DNA from: Methylomonas sp. LL1
GTDB taxonomy: Bacteria; Pseudomonadota; Gammaproteobacteria; Methylococcales; Methylomonadaceae
DNA length: 64,000 bases
NCBI RefSeq assembly: GCF_015711015.1
Contig: NZ_CP064653.1
Coordinates: forward strand, 4,340,001-4,404,000
Direction: 5' to 3'
The translations under genes and the position numbers were made by a program. This document shows positions 26,832 through 63,505 of the stretch, piece by piece (the stretch's first letter is position 1; each line of letters opens with the position of its first letter). A model generated the notes under the pieces. It searched no databases. It was not told the DNA's origin and saw only the letters and a program-made list of their open reading frames with translations.

Positions 26832-27715
26832 GTGGCTCGGCGAAGATCATAGAATCTTTTCTAAATGACCTGTGGCTGGAGTTTGGTCTCAGCAATAACA
26901 CATTGGCTGCGTATGGCAGCGATCTAAATCAGTTCGACAAATGGCTTGAAAAAAAGACGTTGATCGAGGTCGGCGCGGAGGATATTGCCGTTTTTTTACA
27001 ATACCGGCAGAAGCAAGGGCACAGTAGTCGTTCTTCGGCCCGGTTGCTGTCTTGCTTACGGCGATTTTATCGATATTTGCTGCGGGAAAATAAAATTAGT
27101 ACGGATCCTTCCCAGTTGATCGATGCGCCGCATATCGGCCGCTCATTGCCGCATTCCTTGTCGGAAACCGAGGTCGAGCTGCTGTTACAGGCTCCTGAAA
27201 CCGTGCATGCCTTGGGCTTCAGAGACCGAACCATGCTGGAGTTGTTGTATGCCGCCGGTCTTAGGGTATCGGAATTGGTGGAAATTAATTTTCAGCAGGT
27301 AAATTTCCGGCAAGGCTGCATTAGAATAGTCGGTAAAGGCGAAAAGGAGCGATTAGTGCCGGTGGGCGAAGAGGCCATGGTATGGTTGGAACGTTATCTG
27401 ACAGGACCCAGGCAGGATATTCTCGGTAATAGGCAAAGCAATTTTCTTTTCGTCACCGCGCGAGGCTCCTGTATGACAAGGCAGTCGTTTTGGCATATTA
27501 TCAAACGTTATGCCAAACAGGCCGGCATCAATGCGCATTTGTCGCCGCATACCTTGCGGCATGCGTTCGCCACGCATTTACTCAATCATGGCGCCGATTT
27601 GCGGGTAGTGCAATTATTGCTGGGGCATTCGGATTTGTCGACTACCCAGATTTATACGCATATTGCGCAACATCGCCTGAAAGAGCTACATTCAAAATTT
27701 CATCCCAGAGGATAA
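26828..27715 (+). CDS. xerD: site-specific tyrosine recombinase XerD
   Basis: 295-residue recombinase resolving chromosome dimers at dif together with XerC and FtsK. The N-terminal SAM-like domain reads FLNDLWLEFGLSNNTLAAYGSDL, closer to XerD than XerC. The catalytic set is R in AAGLRVSEL, H and R in LSPHTLRHAF, H in LLGHSDLSTTQIYTH and nucleophile Y in the same block. It overlaps ogt and is followed by the lpxA-type gene after 3 bases. Confidence 0.93.
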   Translation: MSGSAKIIESFLNDLWLEFGLSNNTLAAYGSDLNQFDKWLEKKTLIEVGAEDIAVFLQYRQKQGHSSRSSARLLSCLRRFYRYLLRENKISTDPSQLIDAPHIGRSLPHSLSETEVELLLQAPETVHALGFRDRTMLELLYAAGLRVSELVEINFQQVNFRQGCIRIVGKGEKERLVPVGEEAMVWLERYLTGPRQDILGNRQSNFLFVTARGSCMTRQSFWHIIKRYAKQAGINAHLSPHTLRHAFATHLLNHGADLRVVQLLLGHSDLSTTQIYTHIAQHRLKELHSKFHPRG

Positions 27716-59399: not shown

Positions 59400-59836
59400 G
59401 CCGGCGAGGGTGTTTTTACGTTATGGCGCTAGGATCGGAGAAATGATGCCGGCTGTAAAGAACTAAGATGATTTTTGAGAAAGTCTGTACTCATTGTCAA
59501 TGCCAAATATGTTGATCGCGAGCGGAGTCGAAGCGAGCGCTTGACTTTGGTTTCACTCAGTAAATTGTTTGGATTGGGTATATTTATTGCCAGAAATCGC
59601 TATCTAGCGGCCCGATAACATAAATCACAGGAACCGATTACAACCGTTTTTCGAGGCCACGTTTACTGAGAGCGACAAAAGTACACAAATACGAGCATTA
59701 TCTGGCTCATTGTGATCAATGATTAACCGTATTCGACCCGTTGCGGTCTATCGTTCATTCTGATTCAATGGGCAATAGTCAGATGATCATCAGTCATAAC
59801 CTCCTACCGCCGATGATATACAGAAGGGAAAATCAT
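59400..59836. other. intergenic region at the border of the accessory island
   Basis: About 437 bases without a convincing gene. It contains the motif GAGCGGAGTCGAAGCGAGCG (59520-59539), a Ser/Gly-coloured palindromic element related to the GCTTCGACTCCGCTC repeats common in proteobacteria. I see no integron integrase gene and no attC site here. Confidence 0.5.
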
Positions 59837-60379
59837 ATGCCGATGCGAAAGTATGCCGTCATTGCAGTTACTGCGCTGATTTTGATTTCTTGCGTCACCC
59901 CGCGTGTCGTCGAGAAACCGGCGGTGCCAGTTGACTTCTCGCGATTCAAAAGTGTCTCGTATGTCGTTCACGACGCACCCGACACCGAATATAGCTCAAA
60001 CCGGGACTATGGTAAGGAAATACTGACCATTTTTGATGCAATGCTTGGCAACAAGCTTCGTTCAATGGGGTTTAACGTGGTCGATCCGAAGCATTCGCCC
60101 GAGTTATCAATTGACGTGACAGTCAAAGCTGTTAAGCCTGGTAGCGCCGCAATGCGGTTTATTATAGGATTCGGGGCTGGCCGAGCCGTCCTGCTCTACG
60201 ACGCACTATTTCTTGACGCAAGAGGAAATCGGTTGGCTCTGCTCGAAGGGGGCCGGTCTCACACAGGAATGGAGTTTGGGGAGTCATTTGCGGGAGATGG
60301 GCAAATCCAAGCTATCGCGGTCTCACAATCTATACATCAGATAGAAGAATTCATCCGAAACAATTGTTCGTTACCGTGA
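59837..60379 (+). CDS. lipoprotein with DUF4410-like core, first cassette gene
   Basis: 180-residue lipoprotein: signal peptide and lipobox LILISC (Cys about residue 17), then a core resembling DUF4410-type lipoproteins with NKLRSMGFNVVDPKHSP and FIIGFGAGRAVLLYDALFLD. Start at 59837 has GAAGGGA at 59823-59829. The attC-like site A (60428-60505) begins 48 bases after its stop, as in a gene cassette. Function unknown; the fold is often implicated in envelope stress or peptidoglycan-associated roles. Confidence 0.65.
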   Translation: MPMRKYAVIAVTALILISCVTPRVVEKPAVPVDFSRFKSVSYVVHDAPDTEYSSNRDYGKEILTIFDAMLGNKLRSMGFNVVDPKHSPELSIDVTVKAVKPGSAAMRFIIGFGAGRAVLLYDALFLDARGNRLALLEGGRSHTGMEFGESFAGDGQIQAIAVSQSIHQIEEFIRNNCSLP

Positions 60380-60427
60380 ACAATGAATGGGCGAAGGATT
60401 CAAGTTTTGCAATCACACATCGATCCT

Positions 60428-60505
60428 GCCTAACATTGCGCTAAACCGGAGCGCGGTTATATTACGTTTTTATTCTTCAGCTTCCCGTGCCGCACTCGGT
60501 TAGCT
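60428..60505 (+). repeat. attC-like recombination site A
   Basis: GCCTAAC (60428-60434) matches the R'' box RYYYAAC. GTTAGCT (60499-60505) carries the GTTAG of an R' box, although the last two bases depart from GTTRRRY. CTAAC pairs with GTTAG; TGCG (60437-60440) pairs with CGCA (60491-60494); GCGCGG (60451-60456) pairs with CCGTGC (60485-60490, one G-T). The stem is interrupted by unpaired bases, as in attC. Confidence 0.6.
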
Positions 60506-60873
60506 CTGCGTCAAGCGGCTGCGTTTTGGTCCTGACCTACTATTATTGGAACGAGATCGATAAACAGCTTCTGGTCGAACTTGCTCTGTCAGAATTGAAG
60601 GAGCAAAACCGACCCAAAAGAGACTATTGCTTTAATTATGTCAACGACCGCAAAGGGATAATAAGCCGATGTTGGGTTTGCAGAAGTAGACTGGGTTGAA
60701 TGATAATGAAACCCAACTTCGAAGCTGATAAATTTTGTCATCCAAGAAGCATTTTGCATGAAAAGAACTCGGTAATTTCAGAGCATCTGTTGGGTTTCGC
60801 GTTGCTCTACCCAGTCACGACCCTGTTTTGAGAGTAGCCCTCTCCTGAACGAACATTAAAAGCGGTTGCAAAG
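60506..60873. other. leader of the MNT/HEPN cassette with a GTTGGGTTT repeat set
   Basis: 368 bases between attC site A and the MNT gene without a convincing gene. GTTGGGTTT (60671-60679) and AAACCCAAC (60709-60717) form a nine-base inverted repeat, and a third direct copy lies at 60789-60797. This may be a repeat-element remnant or a transcript structure ahead of the toxin-antitoxin pair. Confidence 0.5.
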
Positions 60874-61191
60874 ATGATACATCATCCAAATATTCCAGAA
60901 TCAGCTCGACAATTTCTTGAGCACATATCTACAGATTATGTAATCGAGTCGCTTATCCTCTTTGGCTCCCGTGCTATCGGAGACCACGACGAACGCTCTG
61001 ATGTCGACATTGCGGTATGCGGTCCGGCAATCAGTCGCTTGGAGTGGGCAAGACTTCGTGCGGCAGCTTATAAAGCAAACACGCTCTACTGGGTATCGTT
61101 GGTTCACTTCGACAGGAATCCACCATCATTGAGGGCAAGAATAATAGAAACAGGAGTAGAGATATATGTCCAAACGAAAACTACAAGATAG
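60874..61191 (+). CDS. mntA: MntA-type nucleotidyltransferase antitoxin (MNT domain)
   Basis: 105-residue minimal nucleotidyltransferase. The signature GS-x10-DxD is exact: G31/S32 in LFGSRAIGDHDERSDVD and D43/D45. In the HepT/MntA system MntA neutralises the HEPN RNase by AMPylating a tyrosine near its active site. The gene overlaps the HEPN toxin start by 26 bases, the usual order antitoxin-toxin seen in many HepT/MntA pairs. It is part of the cassette closed by attC-like site B. Confidence 0.88.
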   Translation: MIHHPNIPESARQFLEHISTDYVIESLILFGSRAIGDHDERSDVDIAVCGPAISRLEWARLRAAAYKANTLYWVSLVHFDRNPPSLRARIIETGVEIYVQTKTTR

Positions 61192-61570
61192 CTTAGACAA
61201 CTTGGAGAAAGTGCTAGAAAACCTCGAACGCGCTGTTCTGATCCCCAAAGACAGAGAACTTGTTGCAGAGGGTACAATCCATCGGTTCGAGATGACCATC
61301 GAGTTATTCTGGAAGACACTCCGGCGTGCAATTCAGTATGAAGGGACACGCGTTCAGACTTCTCGGGAAAGCTTGCGCGAGGCTTTCCGTTTGGGCTGGC
61401 TTCACGATGAGCAGGTGTGGTTGGATATGCTAGATAGCCGTAACACAACGTCCCATGAGTATCTCGCTGAGCAGCTTGCAGAGGACAACTACGATGATGT
61501 TGTGAAGGTAACGCCAATCATTCGACAGGCATTTAACCTACTACGGTCTCGATACCCAAAGAGCACCTAA
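61166..61570 (+). CDS. hepT: HepT-type HEPN toxin
   Basis: 134-residue all-helical HI0074-type protein. It carries the RX4HXY ribonuclease and AMPylation motif exactly: R92-NTTS-H97-E-Y99. The helices TIHRFEMTIELFWKTLRRAIQYEG form the HEPN core. Predicted RNase toxin acting on tRNA or mRNA until AMPylated by the upstream MNT protein. ATG follows GGAGTAGAG. Its stop codon lies inside the R'' box of attC-like site B. Confidence 0.87.
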   Translation: MSKRKLQDSLDNLEKVLENLERAVLIPKDRELVAEGTIHRFEMTIELFWKTLRRAIQYEGTRVQTSRESLREAFRLGWLHDEQVWLDMLDSRNTTSHEYLAEQLAEDNYDDVVKVTPIIRQAFNLLRSRYPKST

Positions 61571-61650
61571 CGAATATCATCTTGGGATGGAGCGGGAGGT
61601 GTCCTTTTTTGCAGCTCCCTGGCGTCCGGCCCTTAAAGCTGTTGTTAGCG
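61565..61650 (+). repeat. attC-like recombination site B
   Basis: ACCTAAC (61565-61571) fits RYYYAAC and GTTAGCG (61644-61650) carries GTTAG. Internal stem: GGGAG (61594-61598) with CTCCC (61615-61619); GGA (61589-61591) with TCC (61625-61627); GGG (61584-61586) with CCC (61630-61632); CTT (61581-61583) with AAG (61636-61638). This interrupted stem with extra unpaired bases is characteristic of attC. The stop of the HEPN gene is within R''. Confidence 0.7.
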
Positions 61651-61684
61651 CTACCAAATCTATATCAATCACAGGGAAATCAGT

Positions 61685-62989
61685 ATGACAGATGTGAAGT
61701 TGCCCGCCATTATCGGAAACACCATGCTAGCGCTCGATCAACTTACGATCGCACTTGGTGTTCCACGAGACATTCTTGCTTCTGCGGGTGAAATAGAAAC
61801 TGCATGGAACAATCTTCCAGGTGTATTGAAGAAGATTCCTCCTGCTTTACGCACCGAAGGTATGGCGCGAATGTGCGTTGCAGTCGCCTCTGGCCTATTT
61901 GATAGTGCAATCAACTACATCTGGAACTCATCAATAATTGAGCTGCGAGAAAAGGTTAAGCGGTTTGGCTTAAATGTCGTTGAACAAATCACGGGAAAAT
62001 CTAACTTCGACGACCAATCGCTGTTGGATTTAAAGGATGCTGAGCTTCTCAGTCTTTGCTTAAAACTTAATCTCATTACGGAGGATGGCTACTTCTTTCT
62101 TGACCACTGCCGGGATATAAGAAATAACTTCTCCGCTGCGCATCCGGTAGTCGGAAAGATCGATGATCATGAGTTCATCGGCTTCGCAAATCGCTGTGCA
62201 AAGTACGCGCTCGGGAATGAACATAACCCTGTGGGAGTTGATATTGCTGCCTTTATGGTGGCAATAAAGGGCGGGAAATTTTCCGTTGAGCAGAAGAATC
62301 AATGGGTGCAAAGAATTGGGAAAACTCATGAAGCGCAGCAATATCTTCTCTTTGGTTCCCTGCATGGAATATTCAGCGATCCGAGTAGCAATGAAGAAGC
62401 ACGAGTTAATTCTCTTTCAATCGCGGCTGAATTTGCACCTAACTTCACCCCGAAGGCAAAATCTGACTTAATAAATCGGCATCACGACTATATTGCCAAG
62501 GGTGATGAAAAGCGACATAAAGCATCGCAGCAATTCTTTGAAAAGCTAGGTATGCTTGCGCTGCTTGGTGAGCATGAAGTTCATTCCCTGTTGTCGAATG
62601 CGTCTAAACGATTGATGGCTGTTCACCAGGCATTCGATAATTTCTACAACGAGCCGCCGTTCGCCGAACGCTTGTTGCAACTATCGCAACAGGCAGCGAT
62701 CCCCGATACCGTAAAAGAGGAGCTCGTCACCACTGTAGTCACTTGTGCAATCGGCAATGCGTATGGCGTGTCTAACGCTGCTGTTCCCTACTATCAAAAG
62801 ATGGTCAAAGGGTTTTCACCAAGTGAAGTTGAAATCATGTTGAACTTGCCGAATGCAAAGACAATCGCGGGAGAGCGAATAAAACATTATGCCTCCTGTA
62901 AGAATCGTTTTAAAGGTCTCGTTAACTTAATTGACCCATCTACAGTTCCAGCTAAGGCAGGTGCAGCATACAAGCTGTGGACAAAATAG
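61685..62989 (+). CDS. 434-residue protein with HEPN-like RNase motif, candidate defence effector
   Basis: I do not recognise a named family. Residues about 60-185 are helical and contain HCRDIRNNFSAAHP, an Rx6H HEPN-type motif (R146, H153), followed by ANRCAKYAL as in HEPN domains that act as RNases in abortive-infection systems. The C-terminal half is helical without catalytic motifs I can name (LLSNASKRLMAVHQAFDNFY). The ATG has AGGGA upstream and is 35 bases after the attC-like site B. An RNase effector role is inferred from the motif and the HEPN/MNT neighbour. Confidence 0.6.
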   Translation: MTDVKLPAIIGNTMLALDQLTIALGVPRDILASAGEIETAWNNLPGVLKKIPPALRTEGMARMCVAVASGLFDSAINYIWNSSIIELREKVKRFGLNVVEQITGKSNFDDQSLLDLKDAELLSLCLKLNLITEDGYFFLDHCRDIRNNFSAAHPVVGKIDDHEFIGFANRCAKYALGNEHNPVGVDIAAFMVAIKGGKFSVEQKNQWVQRIGKTHEAQQYLLFGSLHGIFSDPSSNEEARVNSLSIAAEFAPNFTPKAKSDLINRHHDYIAKGDEKRHKASQQFFEKLGMLALLGEHEVHSLLSNASKRLMAVHQAFDNFYNEPPFAERLLQLSQQAAIPDTVKEELVTTVVTCAIGNAYGVSNAAVPYYQKMVKGFSPSEVEIMLNLPNAKTIAGERIKHYASCKNRFKGLVNLIDPSTVPAKAGAAYKLWTK

Positions 62990-62990
62990 C

Positions 62991-63054
62991 GCTAAATAAT
63001 CATTCCAACGGCTTGCACGAAAAGCCGTGCAAGTCGCTTACTTCAATTTAGAGC
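62991..63054 (+). repeat. attC-like recombination site C (degenerate core)
   Basis: CTAAAT (62992-62997) pairs with ATTTAG (63046-63051) at the base; CTTGCACG (63012-63019) pairs with CGTGCAAG (63026-63033) around AAAAGC. The segments CATTCCAACGG and CGCTTACTTCAATTTAG resemble common attC arms, but the AAC/GTT core is lost, so it may no longer recombine. It starts two bases after the stop of the 434-residue gene. Confidence 0.55.
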
Positions 63055-63066
63055 AATTTCGAACAT

Positions 63067-63115
63067 AAACCGGCCATTTAAAAATCAACATCGACGGTCA
63101 GGAATTGGCCGGTTT
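63067..63115. repeat. perfect 10-base inverted repeat downstream of the cassettes
   Basis: AAACCGGCCA (63067-63076) and TGGCCGGTTT (63106-63115) are perfect inverted halves with a 29-base loop. No T tract. It may be a remnant repeat element or a border structure between the cassette island and the chromosome. Confidence 0.55.
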
Positions 63116-63505
63116 CGAACCTTCGACGTACCTACACCTGCGGTGTGTTTAAACAAAATTCAAACGGGTTCCAACTCTATTTATACATTTTTCCCAAGAG
63201 CGGCGATGCCGAGCCTTCATGAAGGTACTATAAGGAAAAAGGTATGAGCAGCAAAGCTGCTGTAGCCATTTTCACTTAATCTGGTTCCTGGCGCCTGGAT
63301 ATTCCCAGCTAATGTGGTCCCGAAAATAGGATGTAATCGGTTTCTGTGGTTTATGTAATTGGGCCGCTATAGCTAACGCAATCAAAACAAAGTCGCGGTA
63401 TGCGCCGCAATCATTATTCAACGGGGACGACAACATCCGCTGGAACCGCGCAAAAACCGGCCAAGGCCAAAGGCATCGCTTATAATTCGACATTTGCTAT
63501 TTGAG
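63116..63505. other. 390-base region without a convincing gene
   Basis: I see no open frame with family features on either strand and no tRNA. A short inverted GCAGCAAAGCTGCTG (63248-63262) is a compact hairpin. The base composition returns toward the chromosomal pattern near 63400. Confidence 0.4.

Follow-up and report, generated by a model that had tools for sequence, protein, structure and literature searches.

We analyzed a 64-kb window of the Methylomonas sp. LL1 genome (G000; ~4.9 Mb, 2 contigs; C2:4340001-4404000), in which a short array of integron-type gene cassettes lies between two conserved ends at 59734..59844 and 63051..63111 (positions are those of the window). This array is likely a decayed member of an integrase-less integron family that is dispersed through methanotrophs of the Methylomonas family. 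Judged by sequence, the ends of the family recur in many unrelated flanks, and its attC families are common to arrays linked to an integron integrase (IntI). An earlier note, made from the window's sequence alone, had described a cassette array without an integrase and called it CALIN-like, after clusters of attC sites lacking integron integrases (CALIN). The integrase-less array was borne out by one significant attC site, by attC families common to IntI-linked arrays and by the absence of an IntI in cis. What did not hold was a free attC cluster, because the left part of an attI platform starts the array and a right end closes it; moreover, one of the three sites scores.

The left end (LE) is a conserved block of ~175 bp; in relatives it stops at an attI crossover, beyond which cassettes begin. 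It was detected through a DNA search of the region against 37 genomes of the genus, which returned many short matches, including window positions 59734-59844; neither LE nor the right end was part of the earlier note. In four loci chosen because they match the first attC site of the window or LE (L050-L053), LE extends to CTAATTACTAGTTAG or a variant and then gives way to differing genes, and its end was therefore read as the attI crossover. A 30-base LE pattern (≤3 mismatches) occurred in 27/37 genus genomes and its reversed control in 0/37, and the whole 175-bp LE was found in 30/37, with up to 12 matches per genome. Across the family, LE was present in 67/237 genomes and 14/29 genera (only three candidates scored per genome). 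The exact pattern, searched over 84,980 species, returned 15 stretches, from Methylomonas (koyamae, fluvii, lenta and others), Methylobacter psychrophilus and Methylococcaceae bacteria; it gave 0 matches in the viral collection and none in phage records. One Methylomonas plasmid and one Methylobacter plasmid carry partial LE matches. G000 itself carries seven LE matches including that of the window, two of them being one interrupted copy, and attC matches accompany the copies at L128 and L129, with a weak one at L132 (18.4 bits, E 0.23). Copies with flanks that reach the crossover number 82, of which 62 begin at LE base 1-5; some of the others are attI sites on the side of an integrase, IntI-B, described below. 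A selected leader peptide in LE was considered and rejected (third-codon entropy 0.784 vs 0.704 and 0.688; many frames broken).

Flanking DNA argues that LE has been dispersed as a bounded unit. The 81 LE copies with enough flank (one of them, in L160, a weak partial match of 19.4 bits) fell into 65 left-flank clusters, an upper bound on the number of sites, with diverged orthologous flanks counted apart. Among the 105 between-cluster matches listed, a start at base -4 to 5 is seen in 86, an end at 163 to 184 in 84, and both in 68. From LE base 1 to 771, the copies at L149 (G026) and L166 (G020) show 99.1% identity; they have the right end in common, and a comparison of their flanks found no homology. 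One and the same unit at several sites, as in a transposon, is seen both in this pair and across the 65 clusters. In another genome (G021), the site orthologous to L166 (L333) is occupied by 19 kb of other genes, which look by eye reverse-transcriptase-like and hydrogenase-type and at whose end lies a divergent right-end tip.

The right end (RE) is a sequence of ~68 bp shared after the last attC of several arrays, ending AATTGGCCG and present in 21/37 genus genomes. We compared 18 LE-RE pairs, spaced 0.73-5.1 kb apart, which were chosen by hand (L117, L148, L278, L282 and L283 were left out, and L177 is the same copy as L149) and some of whose ends were extended a few bases from partial model matches. 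Most of these hand-picked pairs carry the terminal inverted repeats of a non-autonomous transposon: their tips match as an imperfect inverted repeat of ~20 bp, CGACCCGTTGCGGNCTATCG vs CGGCCAAWTGCYGNCTATCG. Tips are degenerate in L116, L134 and L135, and RE is a weak partial match only in L128, L133 and L135. The surroundings of RE copies with no LE on record (14 loci) gave further LE tips in L278, L282 and L283, a partial LE in L275 and a remnant IntI-B array in L285; seven RE copies with ~16 kb upstream showed no LE.

Cassette turnover is seen at these platforms. Among the 82 crossover-reaching copies, 15 pairs share a left flank; the DNA after the platform is unrelated in 14 of them, and one has an identical first cassette. 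In 10 of these 14, the shared sequence ends no more than 3 bases from the crossover. Pairs from the same cluster do not count as independent, and a single site in four genomes supplies six of the pairs; 13/14 pairs differ if L268/L288, which stand beside IntI-B remnants, are left out. L053 and L151, for example, are collinear at 96% to base 176, then hold 4.06 kb and 1.02 kb of unrelated DNA, and then are collinear again at 98.8%, and one flank in four genomes (L074, L069, L139 and L051) is followed by four different first cassettes (the L051 breakpoints are from a first comparison; later recount rows concern the second LE copy of that locus). The right breakpoint falls at an attC R' box in two of the five pairs examined on that side (L051/L143 and L133/L146). 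Because 14/15 orthologous pairs keep their flank and differ after the attI crossover, cassettes seem to have been exchanged without an integrase in cis. The clearest exchange is in the pair G005/G006, where each genome has two IntI matches and an in-frame stop interrupts one of those in G005; no IntI was detected in G007 or G008, which form a further such pair.

Covariance models were used to look for attC sites at the platforms. One model (R1) was built from 27 hand-picked attC sites adjoining the IntI genes of congeners, with gap-free arms and none from the window; at least one training site, in L058, was entered in what later proved the lower-scoring orientation. Platform loci contributed to the training of a broader model (R2; 78 sites), which makes its count of 70/70 matches sense-downstream in 44 loci circular, and R1 was relied on. 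Over 40 platform loci (15 kb each), R1 gave 53 attC matches at E≤0.1, 50 of which lie downstream of the platform in the sense orientation; of the other three, the one in L154 is a palindromic site read in antisense, and L151 and L134 hold one each. At least one sense-downstream attC was found in 20/40 loci. Sites up to 99% identical are common to IntI-linked and platform arrays.

In the window, the same models supported one of three sites. An initial scan by regular expression had been too noisy and was discarded. With the whole window searched and no filters, R1 scored site 1 (attC1, 60428..60516, plus strand) at 31.9 bits (E 1.2e-5), the next best match having 10.9 bits, and R2 scored it at 28.8 bits. 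Eight sites in seven loci share 80-87% identity with site 1, and three of these loci (L048, L054 and L056) hold an IntI; across whole genus genomes, the matches go down to 76% identity. Site 1 is a real attC. Its boxes read R'' GCCTAAC, L'' GCTAAA, L' GTTAGC and R' GTCAAGC, the R' having decayed and being without its GTT, and the GTTAG earlier taken for R' is in fact L'. Site 2 (61565..61651, plus strand; R'' ACCTAAC, R' GTTAGCG) has the CTAAC/GTTAG boxes and an attC-like hairpin; in 30 random 64-kb sequences, such boxes with a comparable hairpin arose on average 0.1 times per sequence. The adjoining HEPN-type gene does stop inside R'', and the next start does lie 35 bases beyond R', as previously read. 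Site 3 (62990..63056, plus strand; R'' CGCTAAA, R' TTTAGAG) is strongly decayed, directly precedes RE and shares 78% identity with an IntI-linked attC of L057 along 45 bases. Thus, by the two covariance models built in this analysis, 1/3 sites is significant: of the three attC-type hairpins originally proposed, site 1 stands, site 2 keeps its boxes and hairpin without a significant score, and site 3 is degenerate. The proposed covariance check accordingly put site 1 above threshold and sites 2 and 3 below, not all three below. As single-stranded DNA, the folds of sites 1-3 were not significantly more stable than those of shuffled sequences (z 0.51, 0.07 and -1.57), and two intact attC sites in the same test gave z of -4.41 and -3.58; all three window sites look decayed.

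The window's own platform is truncated. Its LE (59734..59844, plus strand) matches LE model positions 1-110 (nhmmer, 87.8 bits; also by alignment of copies) and runs from the inverted-repeat tip CGACCCGTTGCGGTCTATCG through the conserved TCTGATTCAATG to GATGATATACAGAAGGGAAAATCATATG. The 3' part (LE positions ~111-176), where the attI crossover sits in other copies, is absent, so the attI core is gone, and the platform's ATG now starts the gene of a DUF4410 protein: both this ATG and the preceding AGAAGGG, which may be Shine-Dalgarno-like, are those of the LE platform in the alignment of copies. RE (63051..63111, plus strand, GAGCAATTTCGAACATAAACCGGCCATT...GACGGTCAGGAATTGGCCG) scored 58.5 bits with an nhmmer RE model whose source sequences included this very copy, so that the score is not independent; an independent DNA match to the right end of L166 (83%) was found, and the tips of RE and LE form an imperfect inverted repeat. 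Since the attI core is gone and the attC sites are decayed, the window copy is most likely a fossil in which cassette capture is probably no longer possible.

We then considered where an integrase could come from. As the earlier note had stated, the window has no IntI; a tyrosine recombinase at ~26.9-27.7 kb (26891-27676) is just 28-31% identical to integron integrases and is not an IntI. A tblastn search with three IntI types (E≤1e-4) found none near 44 platform copies (40 platform loci plus L050-L053; 2-12 kb upstream, 8-18 kb downstream), with one partial exception in L159, a 36-residue match to an open reading frame that reads through the attI region of the G000 integrase. About 4.6 kb beyond LE, that locus repeats (80% over 126 bp) the stretch adjoining the G000-type intI but not this intI itself; a second attI type may also be dispersed. 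Looking for intI elsewhere in G000, as had been advised, did uncover one: an open IntI frame (440 bits) lies 2.4 Mb from the array, is of another type than IntI-B and has three attC matches beside it (39.9, 34.7 and 27.8 bits). The 493-aa IntI-B of G017 (L063) is an open frame adjoined by LE positions 64-176 (70.9 bits), and the LE 3' part also lies beside IntI-B remnants in L263, L266 (LE 35-176), L268, L285 and L288. Because it adjoins both, the LE 3' part looks like the attI of IntI-B. Among the loci of 17 IntI matches (some at contig ends), a LE match was found only at G017, and IntI-B stands at full length next to its attI once, being otherwise a remnant or on a cut contig. The IntI-B frame itself (L063 51-1529, minus strand, 493 residues) begins with a long N-terminal extension and becomes IntI-like at about residue 190. 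An autonomous IntI-B transposon bounded by LE on its far side was considered and rejected, as LE 1-62 was not found in the 16.5 kb around the IntI-B of G017.

Together, these results can be joined into a mechanism. A complete unit consists of a left inverted-repeat tip, a conserved leader of ~110 bp and an attI core whose crossover ends the 175-bp block, followed by one to several attC cassettes and a 68-bp right end with a matching tip. Cassette replacement would be ordinary integration and excision by an IntI acting in trans, now or in the past, for which the 493-aa IntI-B would be the natural candidate, its attI being the sole one resembling LE among the IntI loci compared. The LE-RE unit would have spread as a non-autonomous, transposon-like element moved by a recombinase. 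The window copy has probably suffered a deletion that took out the attI core and joined the DUF4410 gene to the start codon of the platform. We put at just short of an even chance a broader proposal, that integrons of this family are mainly mobile integrase-less platforms in which an attI with its own inverted repeats multiplies and copies gain and lose cassettes, while the integrase helps but can be dispensed with, or a different recombinase acts; the latter clause reflects cassette replacement between genomes without a detected IntI (G007 and G008).

Several observations weigh against a dispersed integrase-less family, the strongest gaps being the missing helper and the want of a clean empty site. 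Among the 30 LE-bearing genus genomes, an IntI above the cut-off was found in 13 and none in 17, and a renewed search at 1e-24 of G000 and 12 of the 17 IntI-less genomes (G029 and G033-G036 left out) recovered in those 12 one IntI-B remnant (G012) and two other recombinases (in G004 and G007, 30% identical to IntI-B), so that a helper would often be absent today. LE 1-34 was not found near IntI-B and was seen only in the dispersed form, whose descent is therefore not traced; nor does the attI region of the G000 IntI match LE. Junction queries for L166 and L149 returned no clean empty site, orthologues of the window's flanking gene likewise gave none, and no consistent target duplication accompanies the 18 LE-RE pairs. 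Half of the platform loci (20/40) lack a sense-downstream attC match by R1. At the exchanged cassettes, homology stops ~25 bases before the crossover in 4/14 differing pairs, partly because two attI 3' ends exist, with L268/L288 beside its IntI-B remnants being one of the four, and the right breakpoint is not at a recognizable R' in 3/5. A sigma-70 scan of LE found no promoter. In the window, neither model reports site 2 on the sense strand at E≤10 (R2 reports the opposite strand only, at 7.1 bits), and site 3 reaches 3.9 bits by R2, with no R1 match at E≤10.

Three other explanations were weighed. The array could be an ordinary CALIN, made by off-target (attG-type) insertion by the genome's own IntI or left by a complete integron that lost intI. 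The open IntI 2.4 Mb away with its three attC matches would suit this, and off-target insertion, intI loss and rearrangement are the origins proposed for CALINs in the accessible text of PMC8618304. Yet the left block is common to 65 flank clusters and the right end is also shared, and independent losses of intI would hardly give an identical left boundary every time, which makes this account distinctly unlikely. LE might instead be an independent dispersed repeat, resembling a miniature inverted-repeat transposable element (MITE) or a repetitive extragenic palindromic (REP) sequence, whose attI-like target gathered cassettes without any descent from an integron. Its inverted-repeat tips, many copies and sharp left end are what such a repeat would have; by our own reading, RE-like halves sit just upstream of LE in some copies, and the seven RE copies without a LE in ~16 kb upstream fit as well. 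However, the ~113 bp at the 3' side of LE match the attI beside the open IntI-B and five remnant sets, and the tips, also tried as an abundant REP family and rejected as one, are not abundant in G000 (22 matches at ≤2 mismatches vs 5 for the reversed control). On balance, an independent repeat is rather unlikely.

That the hairpins and gene-flanking repeats arose by chance and bear no relation to integrons is hardly credible. Sites 2 and 3 do fall below threshold and all three fold no better than shuffles as DNA, but for site 1 chance is already refuted by its E of 1.2e-5 and its homologues in IntI-bearing loci, and the region is bounded by LE and RE.

The genes of the array lie on the plus strand, and a hairpin follows each gene or gene pair, as had been claimed. 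The DUF4410 gene (59837..60379; PF14366, 39.3 bits, cut-off 26) is followed by attC1, which ends cassette 1. Cassette 2 encodes a nucleotidyltransferase like the antitoxin MntA (60874..61191; PF18765, 49.5 bits) and an HI0074/HepT-type partner with the motif RNTTSHEY (61166..61570; PF08780, 87.8 bits). Like type VII MntA/HepT systems, it sets a nucleotidyltransferase and a HEPN-type partner in tandem, and the partner exceeds the HI0074 family cut-off (TIGR01987, 81.6 bits vs 55.8); the MntA-like protein differs in scoring 49 bits, below the NCBIfam cut-off of 60 (NF047752). The same cassette contains an interspersed genus repeat of ~220 bp (60605..60824) that is not an integron part, with DNA matches in congeners, including L011, as many copies of ~66-91% identity, and one at G000:C2:1929756. 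Cassette 3 (61685..62989) encodes a 434-aa protein with the motif RNNFSAAH and no family assigned; Pfam, NCBIfam and PADLOC searches gave no match at E≤0.01, and 330 bp of the gene are ~68% identical to rhizobial plasmids. Outside the array, 59463-59600 is an interspersed repeat with copies at G000 C2:331848, 481960, 880765, 3252907 and 4124136 and also in G001. A 67-bp inverted pair (59605-59671 and 63303-63369, 81%) lies just outside LE and RE, and its right-hand copy also matches plasmids of Methylomonas, Methylotuvimicrobium and Pseudomonas; this pair was rejected as the mobile ends, since it falls outside LE-RE and none of the other loci compared has it.

Integrons with mobile boundaries have precedents. 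Gillings et al. in 2009 reportedly described a class 1 integron mobilized through flanking MITE-like structures. A MITE-flanked integron in Acinetobacter is described in the available text of PMC3934969. Such integrons and the present family both have inverted-repeat boundaries around an integron region; the integron there reportedly lies between two MITE copies, whereas here the attI platform is itself the left end, RE is distinct and the arrangement repeats family-wide. Relative to sedentary chromosomal integrons, an attI followed by sense-oriented cassettes and attC families in common with IntI-linked arrays of the genus are retained, but there is no cis intI, and one genome holds several platforms. 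The window array, unlike a complete integron, has no intI next to it. With CALINs it shares attC cassettes and no integron integrase nearby; it differs in that arrays here begin with a conserved attI-type platform and, wherever RE was detected, are closed by it, each of the two recurring at many places, and in that the window has one scoring attC only. The accessible portion of PMC9024848 states that two attC sites are by default the minimum for IntegronFinder 2 to report a CALIN, and that of PMC12444791 that CALINs are mobilizable in trans by a functional IntI. The available part of PMC8527097 reports for Methylococcus one complete integron, an integrase on its own and stretches with attC sites only. 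No description of attI platforms dispersed without intI was found in the open-access literature searched.

This family would add a fourth origin of CALINs to the published proposals, namely the dispersal of bounded attI platforms without intI. In place of one attI per genome, these methanotrophs would have many capture sites served in trans. LE would also provide an attI signature outside class 1, where IntegronFinder 2, by the accessible text of PMC9024848, does not detect attI sites, and orthologous platforms in sister species may serve as natural records of cassette turnover.

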